Source of the DNA: Winogradskyella immobilis
GTDB lineage: Bacteria; Bacteroidota; Bacteroidia; Flavobacteriales; Flavobacteriaceae
Direction of reading: 5' to 3'
NCBI RefSeq assembly: GCF_021887715.1
Contig: NZ_JAIQXX010000010.1
Coordinates: forward strand, 1 to 64,000
Length of the DNA stretch: 64,000 nt
Below are positions 55,602 to 63,689 of the stretch, one piece after another. The notes beneath the pieces are model-generated. The model searched no databases. It was given only the letters and a program-made list of their open reading frames with translations, and was not told where the DNA came from. The position numbers were made by a program, and so were the translations under genes. Positions within the stretch are counted from its first letter, which is position 1. The number at the start of each line of letters is the position of its first letter.

Positions 55602-56933
55602 ATGAAAAAACCTGAATTACCACCAAACTCTGAAATAAGCAAGGATGAAACTGATGATCTTATAGCCTTATTAAGTAACAAAGAATTAATTGAAAAAGTA
55701 TTTGAGGTTGAAAAGGACTATCCATATTGGGAAAAATTCAAACATAAGACAAAAGGATTTGACAGTAATCCAAAGTTATTATGGAAATTTATAAAACTTC
55801 AACGAACTAGAAATATTTCAAAAATTGACCTTTGCGACATAAATGGTTTTAAATTTAAATATAATATATCAGGTAATACACTCAAACGACTACATCAATT
55901 TGATTTAAATCTTGGAGGTATACTTGAAGGAGGTTCAATCGTTCCTGAAAGAGAAAAAGAACGCTTTTTAATTAGTTCATTGATGGAAGAAGCAATAGCA
56001 TCAAGTCAACTAGAAGGTGCTGTAACTACTAGAGAAGTTGCAAAATCAATGTTACGAACAAAGAGAAAGCCAAAAAATCATTCTGAAAAAATGATTCTGA
56101 ATAATTATCTTACTATAAAAGAGATAATATCTATTCAAAAAGAACAATTAACACCTGAAATTATTAAACGTATTCATAGTTTAATGACTAAAGGTACTCT
56201 TGAAGAAAAAAAAAATGAAGGAGAATTTAGAACAAACAACGAAGTAAAAGTAGTTGATGTAAATGGAGAAATATTTTATGATCCGCCATCTCATACTGAA
56301 CTTACTAAATTAATAGAAGCATTTTGCAAATTTGCAAATTCTAAAAATGACAAAAACTTTATGCATCCAATAGTTAGAGGAATAATACTTCACTTTCTTA
56401 TTGGTTACATACATCCTTTTGTTGATGGAAATGGAAGAACAGCAAGAGCAATTTTTTATTGGTATTTAATATCACAAGGATATTGGCTTGTTGAATTTTT
56501 GTCTATATCAAGAATAATAATAAAATCTCCAAGTCAATATGCAAGAGCATATTTATATACCGAATACGATGAAAATGACTTAACCTATTTTATTGATTTC
56601 AATTTAAAATCAATGGAATTAGCTCTAAATAGTTTAAAAGAATATATTGAGAGAAAAATTAATGAAAAAAAGAATTTATATAACATTTTAAAAAATGAAA
56701 ACATAAATGAGAGACAGGCAGAAACAGTTAAATCTATAATTAACGAACCTGACTTAATCTTAAATATTAATGAAATTCAAGGTAAATTTGGAACATCTTA
56801 TCAAACAGCGAGAACAGATTTATTAAATTTAGAAGAAATAGGCTACTTAAAGAGTAAATTGATAGGAAAAAAATTAATATTTTTTAAATCAGAACAATTT
56901 GATGAAAAGATAAAGAAAATTCACTTTGTCTAA
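55602..56933 (+). CDS. fic: Fic family protein, class II, with C-terminal winged HTH
   Basis: A 443-residue Fic (AMP-transferase fold) protein. The catalytic motif HPFVDGNGRTAR is at 271-282 and complete. The inhibitory motif (S/T)xxxE(G/N) is N-terminal, S134-SQL-E138-G139, which defines class II: E138 would block ATP binding until relieved. The C-terminal ~80 residues look like a winged HTH (INEIQGKFGTSYQTARTDLLNLEEIGYL). The target protein is unknown. Many arginines use AGA, and the gene is flanked by remnant hairpins, so it may be a later arrival among core genes; this is inference. Confidence 0.92.
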   Translation: MKKPELPPNSEISKDETDDLIALLSNKELIEKVFEVEKDYPYWEKFKHKTKGFDSNPKLLWKFIKLQRTRNISKIDLCDINGFKFKYNISGNTLKRLHQFDLNLGGILEGGSIVPEREKERFLISSLMEEAIASSQLEGAVTTREVAKSMLRTKRKPKNHSEKMILNNYLTIKEIISIQKEQLTPEIIKRIHSLMTKGTLEEKKNEGEFRTNNEVKVVDVNGEIFYDPPSHTELTKLIEAFCKFANSKNDKNFMHPIVRGIILHFLIGYIHPFVDGNGRTARAIFYWYLISQGYWLVEFLSISRIIIKSPSQYARAYLYTEYDENDLTYFIDFNLKSMELALNSLKEYIERKINEKKNLYNILKNENINERQAETVKSIINEPDLILNINEIQGKFGTSYQTARTDLLNLEEIGYLKSKLIGKKLIFFKSEQFDEKIKKIHFV

Positions 56934-57077: not shown

Positions 57078-58430
57078 CTAAAAAAGTTTCTTTACCTCAT
57101 CAAAGTCTAGGCCTCCGTAATTCCCTGAACTCATCAATAACAGAGATTTGTTTTCAAAATTTTGAGAGAACAGAAAATCTTTAAAATCATCTGGGTTGGT
57201 ATAAATGATTAAATCGTCTCGCTGAAAAGCATTGGCTATTTGATCTTTAGTAACTTCTTCTAGTTTTTTAATTTCTACAGCATGCGGCGAATAAAATACA
57301 ACAGCTACATCTGCAGCATCTAATGCGCCTTTATACTCTTTTAAAAATTCTGCATTTAAACTACTATATGTATGCAACTCTAAACAAGCTACCAAAGTTC
57401 TGTCATTATACTGCGTTTTTAAGGCCTTAGTCGTTGCTTCTACTTTACTTGGTGAATGTGCAAAATCTTTATAGGCTATGCTGGTTTTAGATTCTGCAAT
57501 TTTTTCTAAACGTTTGCTTGCTCCTGTAAAAGTAGAAATGGCTTCGTAAAAATCATCTTCGTCTATGCCCATATGTTGGCAAATCCATTTGGCACCAGCT
57601 AAATTATTAAGATTATGCGCACCAAAAACTTCAATTGGCATTGGCCCTTCTGAAGTTTCTAATAGTGTTTCTCCATCTTCTACCGTATAATCTGGTGTCT
57701 GGTAAGGTAGCTTTCTAATCTGGTTTTCAGAAGCTTCTACAACACGTTTTACCTCAGCATCTTCTTCGTTATAATTTATGCTTCCGCCTGTAACAATACT
57801 ATCTACAAAAATGCTAAACTGTTCTACGTAATCTTCATAGGTTGGAAATACGTTGATATGATCCCAAGCAATACCACTTAACAACGCAATATTAGGTTTA
57901 TACAAATGAAATTTAGGGCGACGATCTATTGGAGAGCTTAAATATTCGTCTCCTTCTAGTACTATAAAATCGTTATCTTCTGTGAGTTTCACCATAACAT
58001 CAAAACCTTCTAACTGTGCACCAACCATGTAATCGACATCTCTTCCATGGTAATGCATTACATGTAAAATCATAGATGTAATGGTTGTCTTACCATGACT
58101 ACCACCAATAACAACACGTGTTTTGTGTTTGGCCTGTTCATATAAAAACTCTGGATAACTATAAATTTTTAAATTGAGTTCTTGAGCTTTTAGCAATTCA
58201 GGATTGTCTGCTTTAGCATGCATTCCTAAAACAATAGCATCTAAATTTGAAGTGATTTTTTCTGGAAACCAACCAAAAGTTTTTGGTAGTAATCCTTTTG
58301 CTTCTAATCTAGATTTAGAAGGGTCAAAAATAGTGTCGTCACTTCCCGTAACTTTGTATCCTTTATTATGAAGCGCTATCGCCAAATTGTGCATCGCAGC
58401 ACCACCAATAGCTATAAAATGTACATTCAT
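57078..58430 (-). CDS. mpl: UDP-N-acetylmuramate:L-alanyl-gamma-D-glutamyl-meso-DAP ligase
   Basis: A 450-residue Mur ligase that re-uses murein tripeptide in cell-wall recycling. The N-terminal Rossmann domain starts FIAIGGAAMHNLAIAL; the ATP loop reads GSHGKTTITSM (about 109-119), followed by LEGDEYLSSP and the C-terminal domain KDFAHSPSKVEAT. Its position 33 bp after tolC suggests read-through from the export operon, though the functional link is unclear. It complements the amidase gene nearby. Confidence 0.93.
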   Translation of the reverse strand: MNVHFIAIGGAAMHNLAIALHNKGYKVTGSDDTIFDPSKSRLEAKGLLPKTFGWFPEKITSNLDAIVLGMHAKADNPELLKAQELNLKIYSYPEFLYEQAKHKTRVVIGGSHGKTTITSMILHVMHYHGRDVDYMVGAQLEGFDVMVKLTEDNDFIVLEGDEYLSSPIDRRPKFHLYKPNIALLSGIAWDHINVFPTYEDYVEQFSIFVDSIVTGGSINYNEEDAEVKRVVEASENQIRKLPYQTPDYTVEDGETLLETSEGPMPIEVFGAHNLNNLAGAKWICQHMGIDEDDFYEAISTFTGASKRLEKIAESKTSIAYKDFAHSPSKVEATTKALKTQYNDRTLVACLELHTYSSLNAEFLKEYKGALDAADVAVVFYSPHAVEIKKLEEVTKDQIANAFQRDDLIIYTNPDDFKDFLFSQNFENKSLLLMSSGNYGGLDFDEVKKLF

Positions 58431-58463: not shown

Positions 58464-59867
58464 TTATAATTCAGGATTTACAGCTAAACTATTAAACAAT
58501 TTTGCTTTTGTGGTATAGTATTTCTTTTGCAACTCAATAGCTTTTAATTGCCCGTCAATAAGTTTAGACTCTCTAGAATTTACCAAAAACAACGAGCTTT
58601 CACCTAACTGAAATTTTCGTTCTTCAGCTCTTAACATTTGCGTATAATCTGTAATCATTTGAGACATTACACCATTTTGAATAACATAAGAATCTAATTC
58701 TTTTTGAGTTGCCGTAACTTTATTAGAAATCTTTATTCGCGTAGCGTTAATCTCATAATCTACATCTTTAATTTTAAGCTTCGCTAATTTTAAATCTCCG
58801 CGTTCTTTTCTTAAAAACAATGGATAACTAATATTAACTCCTGCTTTATATTCTGATGTACTGAATGATCGAGAGACTCGCGGTGTTTCACTTAAAAAAT
58901 TGTATTCTAAATCTATTTTAGGCAAAAGTTTATTCGCTTTTAAACGTCGTTCTAAATTAAGGTTTTGTTTTTTATAATCTAACGATAACAACTTAGGGTG
59001 TTGATCTACAGAAAATTCATTTTCACGAAGTGCAGATGTATTAAATGTATCATCAATAATACGTTCACTATTAACATTTGGTATAATATTATCTTGTAAT
59101 TCTAGAGGTGTGTTATCATCTAACCATAAATAGTTAGACAATTTTAATGATGCTTTTATAAGCTTTACTCGTGTTTTTTCAAAATTCAGTTTACGGTCAT
59201 TCACCGCTATACGTGCTTCAATAGAATCTATCGCTGCGCGCTCACCAACTTCCACGCCACGTTTAACACCAAGAAAACGTTGTTCTGCGTTTACTAAAAA
59301 GTTTTCGAATACTTGATTTTCTTTGTACGCTTTTAACCATTCAAAATACACAACTGAAGCTTCAAACAAAATGTTATTAACATAGATATCTCTATCTGCT
59401 TTAGCTTGTTCTTTAAACAATTTTGCCTGTTTTAATGCTGCCATTCTTTCATTAATTAACAAGCCTCTTGCTGCGGAAAAACTAAATCCGGCAGAGTACA
59501 AACCTCCTTCGGGAACATCGGCTTCAGGATTTAGAAACACTCCTGTATTTTCTTCAAAATTGGCTTTTAATTCAATACCATACCAAGTAGGCACTTTAAA
59601 TGTAGCGTTTAACTTATCGAAATATTCTAATGATTTAAATTTCTTGCGATCGTAATCTACTTCAATCTTAGGGTCAAAAGCACCACGAGACTTTAATAGT
59701 TTTGCTTGACTTTCATCTATAACTAACTCGGCTTGTTTTACAATTGGATGAAACTTTTTTACAAAACCTAAATACTCATCAAAACCTAGCACTTCTTTAA
59801 TCGAGGTGTTTTGAGCATCTACCGTACTAAAAGCAGACATAAAAATAATTATATATAAATACCTCAT
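58464..59867 (-). CDS. TolC family outer-membrane efflux protein
   Basis: A 467-residue outer-membrane factor. Signal peptide (about 1-18), then long alpha-helical segments with two repeated halves typical of TolC barrels/tunnels (KQAKLFKEQAKADRD... and the later AEERKFQLGESSLFLVNSRES motif). The start overlaps the stop of the HlyD gene by one base. It should form the outer duct for the ABC/HlyD pair. Confidence 0.9.
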   Translation of the reverse strand: MRYLYIIIFMSAFSTVDAQNTSIKEVLGFDEYLGFVKKFHPIVKQAELVIDESQAKLLKSRGAFDPKIEVDYDRKKFKSLEYFDKLNATFKVPTWYGIELKANFEENTGVFLNPEADVPEGGLYSAGFSFSAARGLLINERMAALKQAKLFKEQAKADRDIYVNNILFEASVVYFEWLKAYKENQVFENFLVNAEQRFLGVKRGVEVGERAAIDSIEARIAVNDRKLNFEKTRVKLIKASLKLSNYLWLDDNTPLELQDNIIPNVNSERIIDDTFNTSALRENEFSVDQHPKLLSLDYKKQNLNLERRLKANKLLPKIDLEYNFLSETPRVSRSFSTSEYKAGVNISYPLFLRKERGDLKLAKLKIKDVDYEINATRIKISNKVTATQKELDSYVIQNGVMSQMITDYTQMLRAEERKFQLGESSLFLVNSRESKLIDGQLKAIELQKKYYTTKAKLFNSLAVNPEL

Positions 59868-61225
59868 TATTTCTTTTTTGCTGTTTTATTTGTCGCCGTT
59901 TCTGGTTGGTAGTAATTAGGTGGAAAACCGTTTAATTGTCTCCAAAGTTCAAACCAAATAGGAACATCATCTAATAATGCCATGGTAAATGCTCCCGATC
60001 CTGCACGTACATCTTTTGGCCACTTTTGGTCGTCCTCATCTGGCGCTAATAATACTCTAAACTTACCGTTACTTAGTGTAATAAAATTTTCTACTGCTAC
60101 AACTTTTGCGCCATAGGTACCATAAGACACATTTGGCCAACCTCTAAATACAATAGCCGGCCAACCATCAAACTGAACACGTACTTTTTCACCAACATGT
60201 ATCAGTGGTAAATCTATTGGTGACACAAAAGTTTCGACAGCTAAATCTACATTAGCAGGCATAATACCGACTAACTTCTCTCCTTCTTTAAATGTTTGAC
60301 CAATACCTGGCACTAATACTTTATTGATATAGCCATCATAAGGTGCTGTGACAAATAAAAGGCCATTTCTAATTTTATAATTTGAAACTTGATTATCTAA
60401 TTTAGTCACTTGTGCTTCGGTATCAAACTGACTCGATTGCGCTGAAAATTTATCGCTTTCTGCTTTTGAAATCTTATCTGAAAATTCAACATTTACTCTA
60501 GAAATTTCAACCTTAGCATTAATGACTTCGTTTTTACTTGCTAGTAATTTATTGTTTTGAGAAATTAATTTTGCTTGTGTCTCACGTAATTTAACTGTAG
60601 CGTCTTCAACATTTTTTAGTGCTGTAAAACCATCTTTAAATAATGAGTCTGCACGATTGTATTTTGTTTCAGCAATTTTTATAGCTGTTTTAGCAGCTTC
60701 TAAATCTATACTATCACTTTCTACCTTATACTTAGCTTGAATAAGTTTATTCTCAGCTTGTTCTAGTTTTAATCTTCGCTCACTAATTAATGCCGATATA
60801 CGTACATCATTAGCCTTAACTTTTCCTTGATAAGACTCAACAGATAATGCTTTTGCATCGCGTTGTTTTGTTGTACGTTCCACAAGTTTAGGGTCAAAAT
60901 AATCGGTCTTCACTTCTGAGATACGAATAATTGTATCTCCTTTTTTTACAAAAGCACCTTCTCTAACAAACCACTCTTCTATTCTACCAGGAATTTGAGA
61001 TTGTATCGTTTGCGGACGTTGATCTGGTGTTAACGTAGTTACGTTACCACGACCAGTAATATTTTGCGTCCATGGTAAAAACAAAATAATGAAACCAAGT
61101 ATAGCTGACCCACCTAAAAAGCGATTAAAATACTTATAATAATTACTGTGAAATACACGCTTCCCTGACTTAGAGTCTGTGATATCTACCGATTTATTAA
61201 GTTGATTATGAGATATATTTAACAT
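59867..61225 (-). CDS. HlyD family periplasmic adaptor
   Basis: A 452-residue membrane-fusion protein. One transmembrane helix (about 37-55) anchors it; a lipoyl-like half (RIEEWFVREGAFVKKGDTIIRI), a long coiled coil (about 105-290) and a beta-barrel domain follow (LAVETFVSPIDLPLIHVGEKVRVQFDG). It lies between the ABC protein (9 bp) and TolC (1-bp overlap). It would bridge the inner- and outer-membrane parts. Confidence 0.91.
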   Translation of the reverse strand: MLNISHNQLNKSVDITDSKSGKRVFHSNYYKYFNRFLGGSAILGFIILFLPWTQNITGRGNVTTLTPDQRPQTIQSQIPGRIEEWFVREGAFVKKGDTIIRISEVKTDYFDPKLVERTTKQRDAKALSVESYQGKVKANDVRISALISERRLKLEQAENKLIQAKYKVESDSIDLEAAKTAIKIAETKYNRADSLFKDGFTALKNVEDATVKLRETQAKLISQNNKLLASKNEVINAKVEISRVNVEFSDKISKAESDKFSAQSSQFDTEAQVTKLDNQVSNYKIRNGLLFVTAPYDGYINKVLVPGIGQTFKEGEKLVGIMPANVDLAVETFVSPIDLPLIHVGEKVRVQFDGWPAIVFRGWPNVSYGTYGAKVVAVENFITLSNGKFRVLLAPDEDDQKWPKDVRAGSGAFTMALLDDVPIWFELWRQLNGFPPNYYQPETATNKTAKKK

Positions 61226-61234
61226 CGTTTTTTC

Positions 61235-62896
61235 TTATATAATTTCACCGTTTTCTAATGTAATAACTTGACTACAGCGTTTAGACCAAGTATCATTTGT
61301 ACTCACCACAATTAAAGCCCAAGGGTTTGATTTACTGGTAAGCATATCTATAATTTCTGAAGCTTCTTCTGCTTCGAAATGCTCTAACGGATCTTCTAGA
61401 ATTAATAATTTAGGTGCATCTATAATAGCCCTAGCTAATACAATTCTTTTAACTACTGTAAAAGATGTACGCTTGCCTTCTGGGTATAAAATAGTATCCA
61501 ATCCATTAAGGTTTTCTTTTATAAAATCTGTTAGACCTACTTGCTTTGTTACTTTAAGTAATTGATCATCAGAAATATCTTTACTGCCAAAAGTGATGTT
61601 TTCTCTAATAGTACCTTCAAAAAGAGACTCATCAGCAAGAGACAAACCTAAATGCGAGCGGTAATAATTAAGATTAATATTATGAATATTAGATTCATTA
61701 ATATATATCTGTCCTTTTGTTGGTGCAATAACTCCTGATATTAAACGTAGTAAGGTGGACTTCCCTGAACCACTTGCTCCTTTAATTAAAAGCCTACTTT
61801 GTGGCTGAATTTTTAAAGACACCTTATTTAAAATATGTTTCTCTCTATCCGGAACATTATAACTCACTTCATTTAATTCTAGAGTAAACTGTTCTTGAAA
61901 ATTAGGCTGAAGTCCTTCTTGGTCTTCAAGCTCTTTATCGACAACTTGTCCCATTTTTTCTAATGAGGTTAGTACATCATAAAAAGATTCTAGGCCAAGT
62001 ATTAATTTCTCTACAGAGTTTATGACCAAAAGAATAATTATTTCGGCAGCTACAAATTGCCCTATGTTCATCTCTTGATTTAAAACAAGTAGTCCTCCTA
62101 TAATTAATAAACCCGCTGTAACTAAAACTTTAAAACCTATCATTTGTATAAACTGAATGATTAGAATTTTAAAATGGTCTTCTCTAGCTTCCAAATAAGC
62201 TTCTACCAGATTGTCATTTTTATCTATTGACAATTTTGTTTTACCTGATAGTTTAAAACTTACTATAGTTCTTGCAACTTCCTGTATCCAATGTGCAACT
62301 TTATACTTATGCTTAGACTCTAACAAACTTGTTTCCATACCTCGCTTTGCCGTATATCTAAATACTACATAAATGAGTAGTATTAATAAAACACCAAACG
62401 CAATAAAAAACGGGTGATAAAACGACAGTAAGATTAATGCAAAAACAATTTGCAAAATAGCAGCAGGAACATCAACCAAAACTTTAGCTAATCCTTTTTG
62501 TATGGTCAGTGTGTCAAAAAAACGATTGGCTAATTCTGGCGGATAATAATGCCTTAGTGCGCTCATTTTTATTTTTGGAAAACGGTAAGTGAACTCAAAA
62601 GATGCACGTGTGAATATACGTTGTTGAATAGTTTCAATAATTCGCATTTGCATTAATTGTAAAACACCTACAAAAGAAACACCTACAGTGACCAAAATGA
62701 CTAGAACAATCCATGAAGTGCTTACTTGAGCTCCTTGAATAAGGTTAATAATGGCTTGTATTCCTAGTGGTAATGTTAACGCTACTAGTCCTGAAAAAAT
62801 GGCGTAATAAATAACCTGTTTTATTGCTTTTTTTTCAAGTCTTAATAATCCCACAAGGCGTTGCCAAGGAGACATTATCTCTTTAATTAAACTCAT
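61235..62896 (-). CDS. ABC transporter (membrane plus degenerate ATPase domain)
   Basis: A 553-residue half-transporter: six hydrophobic helices (about 25-310) and a nucleotide-binding domain (about 335-553). Walker A is intact (GASGSGKST, 373-381). The other motifs are not: the Q-loop reads SLADESLF without glutamine, the LSGGQ signature region reads RTSFTVVKR (476-484), Walker B ends LLILED with E501-D502 in place of D-E, and the H-loop histidine position is S532/T533. No N-terminal peptidase domain is seen. It lies 3 bp after the TetR gene and 9 bp before HlyD. Whether it hydrolyses ATP is doubtful. Confidence 0.9.
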   Translation of the reverse strand: MSLIKEIMSPWQRLVGLLRLEKKAIKQVIYYAIFSGLVALTLPLGIQAIINLIQGAQVSTSWIVLVILVTVGVSFVGVLQLMQMRIIETIQQRIFTRASFEFTYRFPKIKMSALRHYYPPELANRFFDTLTIQKGLAKVLVDVPAAILQIVFALILLSFYHPFFIAFGVLLILLIYVVFRYTAKRGMETSLLESKHKYKVAHWIQEVARTIVSFKLSGKTKLSIDKNDNLVEAYLEAREDHFKILIIQFIQMIGFKVLVTAGLLIIGGLLVLNQEMNIGQFVAAEIIILLVINSVEKLILGLESFYDVLTSLEKMGQVVDKELEDQEGLQPNFQEQFTLELNEVSYNVPDREKHILNKVSLKIQPQSRLLIKGASGSGKSTLLRLISGVIAPTKGQIYINESNIHNINLNYYRSHLGLSLADESLFEGTIRENITFGSKDISDDQLLKVTKQVGLTDFIKENLNGLDTILYPEGKRTSFTVVKRIVLARAIIDAPKLLILEDPLEHFEAEEASEIIDMLTSKSNPWALIVVSTNDTWSKRCSQVITLENGEII

Positions 62897-62899
62897 AAA

Positions 62900-63574
62900 T
62901 TATGATTTGATGGCGTTAAAAACTAAGTCTTTAAAAAAATCTGTTGGTGTTAAATCCTCATTACAATCTGTTATGGATTTAAAATGATCTTTTAAAAAAT
63001 GTTGATGCAAAGCTCCTTCTACGATAGTACTTGCCAAACTTGAAGCATATTTATAATTAGGGTTAATTTTTAAAATCATATCTCTAATTCTCGATATCAA
63101 TCGTTTATATATAACAAAATAACCTTCTTTATTTTCGCTATCTACCTCTTTAGTTAAATACGATTTTGAATACTCATTAATAATAATTTGATTTAGTTTC
63201 ACTTCATTGATATGAGAAAAACTAAAATCTTCTTTAATAGATCTTGTAACAATTTCAATTGTTTTTGAAAGTTGTTTCTCGGTATCAGGCATGTTAAACG
63301 TTTCAAAGACTAACTGGTATTCTATCCATGCCCAATACCAAGATGTTAAGTATAATAATAGTTTATGCTTACTCTCAAAATAGCGATATATAGAGCTCTC
63401 ATTAGAGCTAATAAGTAATCCTAATTTTTTAAAGGTAAAGCTATCAAAGCCTATATCATCAATTAACAATATACTATGCTTTATAATTCGTTTTCCTAAA
63501 TCAGAGGATTCCGGATCTTTTAAAAATATTTTATCTGGAACAGAAATTTTTAAATTTGATAGTAAACTTTTCAT
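62900..63574 (-). CDS. TetR family transcriptional regulator
   Basis: A 224-residue regulator. The N-terminal HTH (about 35-65) reads DSFTFKKLGLLISSNESSIYRYFESKHKL, in which YRYFESKHKLL is the TetR signature. The C-terminal ligand domain is unlike any I recognise. It is the first gene of the ABC-HlyD-TolC operon, and a palindrome stands in its promoter, so it probably represses its own operon. Confidence 0.88.
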   Translation of the reverse strand: MKSLLSNLKISVPDKIFLKDPESSDLGKRIIKHSILLIDDIGFDSFTFKKLGLLISSNESSIYRYFESKHKLLLYLTSWYWAWIEYQLVFETFNMPDTEKQLSKTIEIVTRSIKEDFSFSHINEVKLNQIIINEYSKSYLTKEVDSENKEGYFVIYKRLISRIRDMILKINPNYKYASSLASTIVEGALHQHFLKDHFKSITDCNEDLTPTDFFKDLVFNAIKS

Positions 63575-63592
63575 TACAAACTATTTTGATTG

Positions 63593-63600
63593 CAAATATA
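63593..63600 (-). promoter_or_regulatory. tetR operon -7 box (TATATTTG)
   Basis: On the minus strand TATATTTG fits TAnnTTTG and lies 18 nt before the tetR ATG at 63574. No clear -33 TTTG was seen at 19 nt. Confidence 0.55.
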
Positions 63601-63615
63601 ATAGTATTACTATTA
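63599..63615. promoter_or_regulatory. Palindromic operator candidate in the tetR promoter spacer
   Basis: TAATAGTATTACTATTA is a perfect 17-bp odd palindrome (8-bp arms around one base). It touches the first bases of the -7 box and fills the spacer toward -33. This is the usual location and form of a TetR-family operator. Confidence 0.65.
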
Positions 63616-63689
63616 ATATTGCATATTTAACAATTATTTAGCTCCTAAAAAATTAGGATCTAAATAAAAAAACTAAAAAGTAGTATTGA

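Follow-up and report, generated by a model that had tools for sequence, protein, structure and literature searches.

An ABC-type exporter family of tripartite operons with graded loss of the ATPase motifs and, in one lineage, of the entire nucleotide-binding domain

Here we describe a family of ABC-type half-transporters, represented in a 64,000-nucleotide stretch of Winogradskyella immobilis DNA (hereafter the window), in which the predicted ATPase machinery has been lost in stages. As established by alignment and tree, loss began with the Q-loop glutamine, missing deepest in the family, continued with the signature, Walker B and H-loop motifs, and reached the Walker A lysine in several lineages; at the final stage the nucleotide-binding domain (NBD) itself was lost in one lineage, with retention of the transmembrane domain (TMD), adaptor and channel. 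The same comparisons establish that in the window's clade the recognizable catalytic motifs are gone, that one branch can do without its NBD, and that the remainder is retained under selection. On balance, we favor a reading where the window protein forms the inner-membrane component of a tripartite exporter under TetR control (ABC-type TMD, HlyD, TolC) that would no longer work by ATP hydrolysis, and that is probably ion-driven, independently of SbmA. The more general proposition, that natural T1SS-like tripartite exporters have switched from ATP to an ion gradient, through stages ranging from nearly complete to NBD-free and independently of SbmA, is put forward tentatively, as slightly less likely than not.

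The gene (61235–62896, minus strand; open reading frame, Pfam and Foldseek) encodes a 553-residue ATPase-degenerate ABC exporter subunit with both a TMD and an NBD, and lies in a minus-strand operon (58464–63574) that reads, in order, a TetR-like regulator (224 aa, 62900–63574; Pfam TetR_N at 22 bits, slightly below the curated 24), the half-transporter, a HlyD-family periplasmic adaptor (452 aa, 59867–61225; open reading frame, Pfam and NCBIfam) and a TolC/OEP-family outer membrane channel (467 aa, 58464–59867; open reading frame and Pfam). The TetR repressor being encoded locally suggests an inducible small-molecule exporter. Among relatives, hlyD follows the gene on the same strand at 141 of 144 loci (L040–L134, L162–L210), the exceptions being L198, L199 and L207, to which L276, L278 and L283 add in a second set. 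On its downstream side the TolC gene is adjoined by an Mpl-like Mur ligase gene (57078–58430), a neighbor found again in Winogradskyella-type loci and missing from most other loci compared, and 55602–56933 encodes a Fic-type protein by its motif HPFVDGNGRTAR, as read from the translation alone.

Palindrome and core scans place a putative TetR operator ahead of tetR, at 63591–63623, with core ATAGTAATACTAT / ATAGTAWTACTAT. It overlaps TATATTTG (63593–63600, minus strand, by sequence reading), which fits TAnnTTTG, the consensus of the Bacteroidota promoter element. Of 76 sequences, the window included, 64 carry a slightly looser core close to the start of tetR (shuffled mean 0.1); this count is descriptive rather than blind, as the core was picked by eye from the 6 of 76 sequences returned by the initial palindrome scan. 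Counted with no shuffle control, the looser core also occurs at 13 of another 32 loci, and among 10 genomes whose tetR is divergent, 5 have GATAGTAWTACTATC ahead of an NBD-less operon; NBD-less operons that carry the core retain this kind of control, through the putative operator. Exact copies are rare: the window's genome (3.0 Mb) has 2, and the same-genus genome G157 and the NBD-less genome G437 have none. The TetR regulon was considered as a clue to the substrate and set aside: the window's own genome has its second exact site within an ORF, and at the 20 loci examined the remaining sites outside the operon adjoin unrelated genes.

Within the protein, the TMD spans residues 1–330 (61907–62896, minus strand; Pfam, family alignment and identity comparison) and is the conserved portion of the family, as well as the sole portion remaining in NBD-less relatives, and the NBD spans residues 340–553 (61238–61879, minus strand; Pfam and motif alignment). 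ABC_tran scores 78.3 bits, and a type IV exporter TMD is assigned from ABC_membrane (PF00664, 39.1 bits against a cut-off of 28) together with a Foldseek match to HlyB (8dck, E 3.5e-25). An AlphaFold2 model of moderate quality (mean pLDDT 70; most NBD blocks 72–88 and one 64; cytoplasmic loops below 50), computed without a dimer and from which the environment of the TM6 acids is not readable, likewise has type IV exporters as its Foldseek matches (TAP, PCAT1, TM287/288, HlyB/D). The first-pass annotation had described the NBD as degenerate, a description borne out by comparison with the genome's four further full-length ABC exporters. By alignment, and all on the minus strand, Walker A is intact (GASGSGKST, 373–381; 61754–61780); A421 stands in place of the Q-loop glutamine (61634–61636), TSFTV in place of LSGGQ (477–481; 61454–61468), with the serine as the single LSGGQ residue retained, E501-D502 in place of the Walker B D-E (61391–61396), and T533 in place of the H-loop histidine (61298–61300). 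Profile alignment to P-glycoprotein agrees, again with an intact Walker A and the other catalytic motifs replaced. Walker A had moreover been called the only canonical element, which holds for the catalytic motifs and fails as to exclusivity: the A-loop aromatic, N433 and R489 are also retained, in 194 (Y/F), 203 and 202 of the 203 NBD-bearing family proteins, respectively. By composite-site logic, a homodimer of the window protein would lack any canonical catalytic site, in line with the two non-canonical sites foreseen by the annotation. Every motif is present in 20 of 20 copies of a matched canonical exporter from 20 genomes that hold both exporters, and in 25 canonical type I secretion ABCs from the same phylum (23 complete rows and 2 fragments) the residues K, Q, S, D, E and H are retained where the position is present.

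Searches with the window protein returned relatives in 118 of 199 genomes sampled from its taxonomic family (E up to 1e-60) and in 97 of 395 sampled from its phylum (E up to 1e-50). Most of the 80 named loci retained out of 528 candidates belong to Winogradskyella, Polaribacter, Kordia, Algibacter, Aquimarina and other Flavobacteriaceae, and remoter relatives are plasmid-borne in Persicobacter, Aureibacter, Riemerella and sphingomonads (10 records), those on sphingomonad plasmids having 25–28% identity to an NBD-less relative. In public records two relatives (L307:4968–6620 and L309:3958–5664) are labelled 'ABC transporter ATP-binding protein' despite no recognizable Walker A in the alignment, a misleading name for such members. 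On the Sphingobium plasmid pHAL16 (L309:1362–5664) a DUF2309 gene lies directly upstream of the gene for a relative lacking Walker A; as the ORF list, by reading, gives no such link at the Novosphingobium locus L310 and the window's genome has no DabA, a DabA/DUF2309 association was taken as incidental. Four relatives (L183, L186, L196, L201) have an N-terminal extension of 160–260 residues with no Pfam match above cut-off, C39 peptidase included.

To follow the motifs across the family, we aligned 240 family proteins, one of them the window protein, together with the four further full-length exporters encoded in its genome (identical proteins counted once; L207, a TMD fragment, is left out of counts with denominator 239). 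Homologue alignment had been proposed as a check by the first-pass annotation, and it places the replacements at the same positions in most members; together with purifying selection and the spread over 118 of 199 genomes, this upholds the suggestion that similar sequences exist in other Bacteroidota as a conserved but odd family. The Walker A lysine is the sole survivor of six scored features in 142 of the 203 NBD-bearing proteins (141 if the signature, scored first as S-G at 478–479, is scored as the looser S-x-G). It is kept in 196 of 203 and lost in 7, with at least five changes on a tree of 63 NBD-bearing rows. At the other end of the range, 11 deep-branching rows among L195–L210 keep Walker A, the Walker B D-E and the H-loop histidine without the Q-loop glutamine. 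By the S-x-G score, 7 of 203 proteins, all deep, miss only that glutamine, retaining K, D, E, H and S-x-G, and 4 of these 7 carry LSTGQ, a signature form also present in the canonical member L343. Homologues with normal motifs had been named in advance as evidence that the window's copy is a decayed one: deep members do retain more of the motifs, but the complete set is found in 0 of 203. As these proteins retain most of the motifs, ATP hydrolysis may persist at the base of the family; the loss is graded, and the deep members themselves may still be ATPases.

The NBD is missing altogether from 37 of the 240 family proteins (329–374 aa). All 37 genes have hlyD next, at −40 to +119 bp, leaving no space for an overlooked NBD, and ABC_membrane is the lone Pfam match above cut-off in the three NBD-less proteins tested; a PDB search with an NBD-less protein alone returned nothing at E 0.01. 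In an order-level sample, open frames of 334–394 aa occur at no fewer than 34 loci in at least 33 of 241 genomes. In trees of 89 family representatives, built by a quick method with SH-aLRT support only, the NBD-less rows form a single clade inside the NBD-bearing ones (TMD columns, SH-aLRT 99); the nesting persists when the phylum's 25 canonical type I secretion ABCs are added (SH-aLRT 99), and the family is split from these and 4 paralogues at support 100. This nesting among NBD-bearing rows argues that the NBD was lost, and rules out that it was never gained. A candidate second, independent loss in G1017 (a 353-aa frame) was rejected, as the contig stops within the gene.

What remains of the protein is under strong constraint. 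Across the 20 genomes holding both exporters, mean identity in the family is 81.6% for the TMD and 59.4% for the NBD, as compared with 79.8% and 82.4% in the canonical exporter, and the NBD is more alike than the TMD in 0 of 190 family pairs versus 135 of 190 pairs of the canonical exporter. The dN/dS analysis called for by the annotation points to purifying selection, with medians over 21 pairs of 0.04 for the TMD and 0.057 for the NBD (range 0.026–0.261), and of 0.036 over 4 pairs of NBD-less proteins. Taken together, the identity control and dN/dS indicate an NBD less constrained than expected yet not free, and a fully constrained TMD; purifying selection where the NBD is present argues that it does something. 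Relative to the whole TMD, identity ratios of the coupling loops are 1.19 for ICL1 and 1.00 for ICL2 in 26 NBD-less rows, and 1.04 and 1.10, respectively, in 23 NBD-bearing rows from the same taxonomic order. Since NBD-less members show no clear relaxation of the loops bearing the coupling helices, something may still dock at these cytoplasmic loops.

Candidate coupling residues are found in the membrane. Residues in a hydrophobic context that are common to the 89 family representatives are H161, E285, E/D296 and K297, and by the same rule the canonical control (20 rows) shares none. E285 (62042–62044) and E296 (62009–62011; E or D in the family) in TM6, and D307 (61976–61978; all minus strand) in TM6 or its cytoplasmic extension, form a putative ladder whose spacing of 11 residues, about three helix turns, would place the three acids on one TM6 face. 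First spotted in the alignment and counted afterwards, the triad is acidic at all three positions in 231 of the 239 members, among them 36 of the 37 NBD-less proteins and 10 of the 15 deep members, and in none of the 25 canonical T1SS ABCs or the 4 paralogues. Alphaproteobacterial relatives keep E285 and miss the acid at 296. Because 10 of the 15 deep members already carry it, the triad is not merely a substitute for ATP, and it could serve HlyD contact or folding.

These data support a model where the TMD, which would descend from a type I secretion or peptide-exporter ABC half-transporter, presumably still dimerizes and alternates, and would feed the HlyD-TolC conduit without ATP hydrolysis as its power. 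In the window's clade the remaining NBD, having kept Walker A and the A-loop, may at most bind ATP, as a structural or gating domain. With less certainty, transport might be powered by an ion gradient through the TM6 acids E285, E/D296 and D307, in analogy to the glutamate ladder of SbmA. Of the three alternatives raised by the first-pass annotation, another drive acting with HlyD and TolC fits best, since relatives without the ATPase domain retain the same operon; the drive itself we infer.

A first, rather unlikely, alternative is that the former transporter moves nothing, and serves as a scaffold that anchors or gates a HlyD-TolC conduit draining a periplasmic substrate, with the NBD as ATP sensor or dead weight. 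Loss of the NBD with hlyD kept, loops conserved despite the missing NBD, and retention of Walker A and the A-loop in most members, which fits an ATP-binding switch, would all sit well with such a role, but the whole TMD is as conserved as that of the canonical exporter (81.6% versus 79.8%) and buried charges absent in the control are kept, which is more than an anchor should need.

We consider it improbable that the degenerate NBD, as a homodimer, hydrolyzes ATP with unusual residues, for instance a swapped E-D pair. The Walker A lysine in 196 of 203 proteins, two acidic residues at E501 and D502, an NBD dN/dS of 0.057 and deep members that retain most motifs would speak for such chemistry; against it, 40 of the 203 family proteins carry K, N, T, R or V at position 501 and only 25 carry D, the Walker A lysine is lost in 7, and the NBD is missing in 37. 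The unusual chemistry entertained in the annotation cannot account for complete NBD loss.

Energization in trans, either through pairing with a distant canonical half-transporter or through an unlinked ATPase docking on the coupling loops, is given still less credence. The window's genome holds four other full-length ABC exporters, and the coupling loops remain conserved in NBD-less members, both of which would allow for it. However, there is no second ABC gene in the operon nor in the 16 kb around the window gene, as the annotation had stated for the adjacent genes, and among 144 relatives' loci another ABC gene lies somewhere in the stretch examined at 7 and inside the operon at 0. Furthermore, by residue logic and with the site make-up given in the portion of PMC7756269 covered here, the window protein has lost both the Walker B/Q/H side and the signature side, so that a canonical partner could complete neither site. 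Finally, no displaced family-like NBD was detected in 20 NBD-less genomes, in a search aimed at family NBDs rather than at unrelated ATPases, where only ordinary-looking ABC matches were returned. The best of these (98.6 bits) lies within a full-length exporter frame, as compared in the same search with 92.1 bits for the best canonical exporter of G000 and 114.6–576.9 bits for family NBDs in four NBD-bearing genomes, a modest margin between 98.6 and the weakest true family NBD at 114.6. Loss of both composite-site halves and this lack of a family-type NBD elsewhere in the 20 genomes weaken the distant partner that had been suggested.

Local decay into a pseudogene, to which the loss of nearly all catalytic motifs might point, has next to no chance of being correct and is refuted by conservation: relatives at 45–81% identity show similar replacements, 117 of 118 matches are free of internal stops, dN/dS is far below 1, and operon and operator are conserved.

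If the preferred reading of an exporter that no longer works by ATP hydrolysis is true, the family would constitute a second route, besides SbmA, from primary to secondary transporter. Whether the TMD of an ABC exporter can work on ion gradients alone has so far been argued from truncated MsbA and LmrA; a natural truncation, strongly selected in several bacterial families and accompanied by intermediates, makes the question testable with native proteins. No published description of the family was recognized by title or start of abstract in the open-licence literature, and the family is not mentioned in the part of a review of tripartite systems covered here (PMC8277102).

Among known systems, the type I secretion and peptide exporters (HlyB, LssB, PCAT; TIGR03375, TIGR01846, TIGR03796) combine, like the family, a type IV TMD with a C-terminal NBD, and type I secretion ABCs and the window gene alike are encoded with HlyD and TolC-type partners. 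The best NCBIfam match of the window protein is TIGR03375, but at 196.9 bits against a cut-off of 693.1, and its fold matches include PCAT1 and the HlyB/D complex. Unlike type I secretion ABCs, the window protein has lost its catalytic motifs and starts at the TMD, with no N-terminal C39-type domain, and the TM6 acid triad of the family is missing in the 25 canonical members. Degenerate sites in the heterodimers TM287/288, TAP and TmrAB, and in Pdr5, feature Walker B, H-loop and signature replacements with one complete site kept, according to the part of PMC7756269 considered. The window protein shows the same kinds of replacements as these exporters, but it has no adjacent second half-transporter and keeps neither the Walker B/H side nor the signature side, so that neither composite site could be completed even by a canonical partner.

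Laboratory truncations offer a closer functional parallel. In the sections of the two sources consulted, MsbA-MD, which has no NBD, is reported to carry out proton-coupled drug transport, seen in cells and proteoliposomes and weaker than that of the whole protein (PMC4979069), and LmrA-MD, likewise without NBD, to conduct ions, with E314 in TM6 of LmrA required for proton-coupled transport (PMC6155054). A positional correspondence of LmrA E314 to E285, E296 or E303 of the family is no more than a possibility, and MsbA-MD and LmrA-MD are truncations of ATP-driven pumps made in the laboratory, whereas NBD loss in the family is natural and conserved.

The nearest natural counterpart is SbmA/BacA (SLiPT), described in the part of PMC13316013 covered here as a proton-driven importer with an ABC-type TMD, no NBD and conserved membrane acids forming a glutamate ladder. 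That work proposes that SbmA arose from a complete ABC transporter by loss of the NBD and coupling helices; SbmA is without coupling and elbow helices, and YddA bears part of the ladder. NBD-less relatives of the window protein resemble SbmA in consisting of an ABC-type TMD alone; the TM6 acids of the family would be a candidate counterpart of the ladder should they line the cavity. In contrast to SbmA, the family is of the ABC_membrane type and keeps ICL1/ICL2 coupling-loop sequences even without the NBD, and the SbmA_BacA Pfam model matches neither the window protein (E up to 0.001) nor three NBD-less relatives (E up to 1). The window protein also has an NBD, which SbmA does not, as do all but 37 of the 240 family proteins, and the family adjoins HlyD and TolC and has living intermediates with decayed NBDs. 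Overall, the family is neither a working T1SS ATPase, as judged from the motif tests, nor a member of the SbmA family, as judged from sequence and coupling loops, and its mode of action is most likely similar to that of SbmA; by these sequence comparisons it is a case separate from SbmA, with graded intermediates and tripartite partners.
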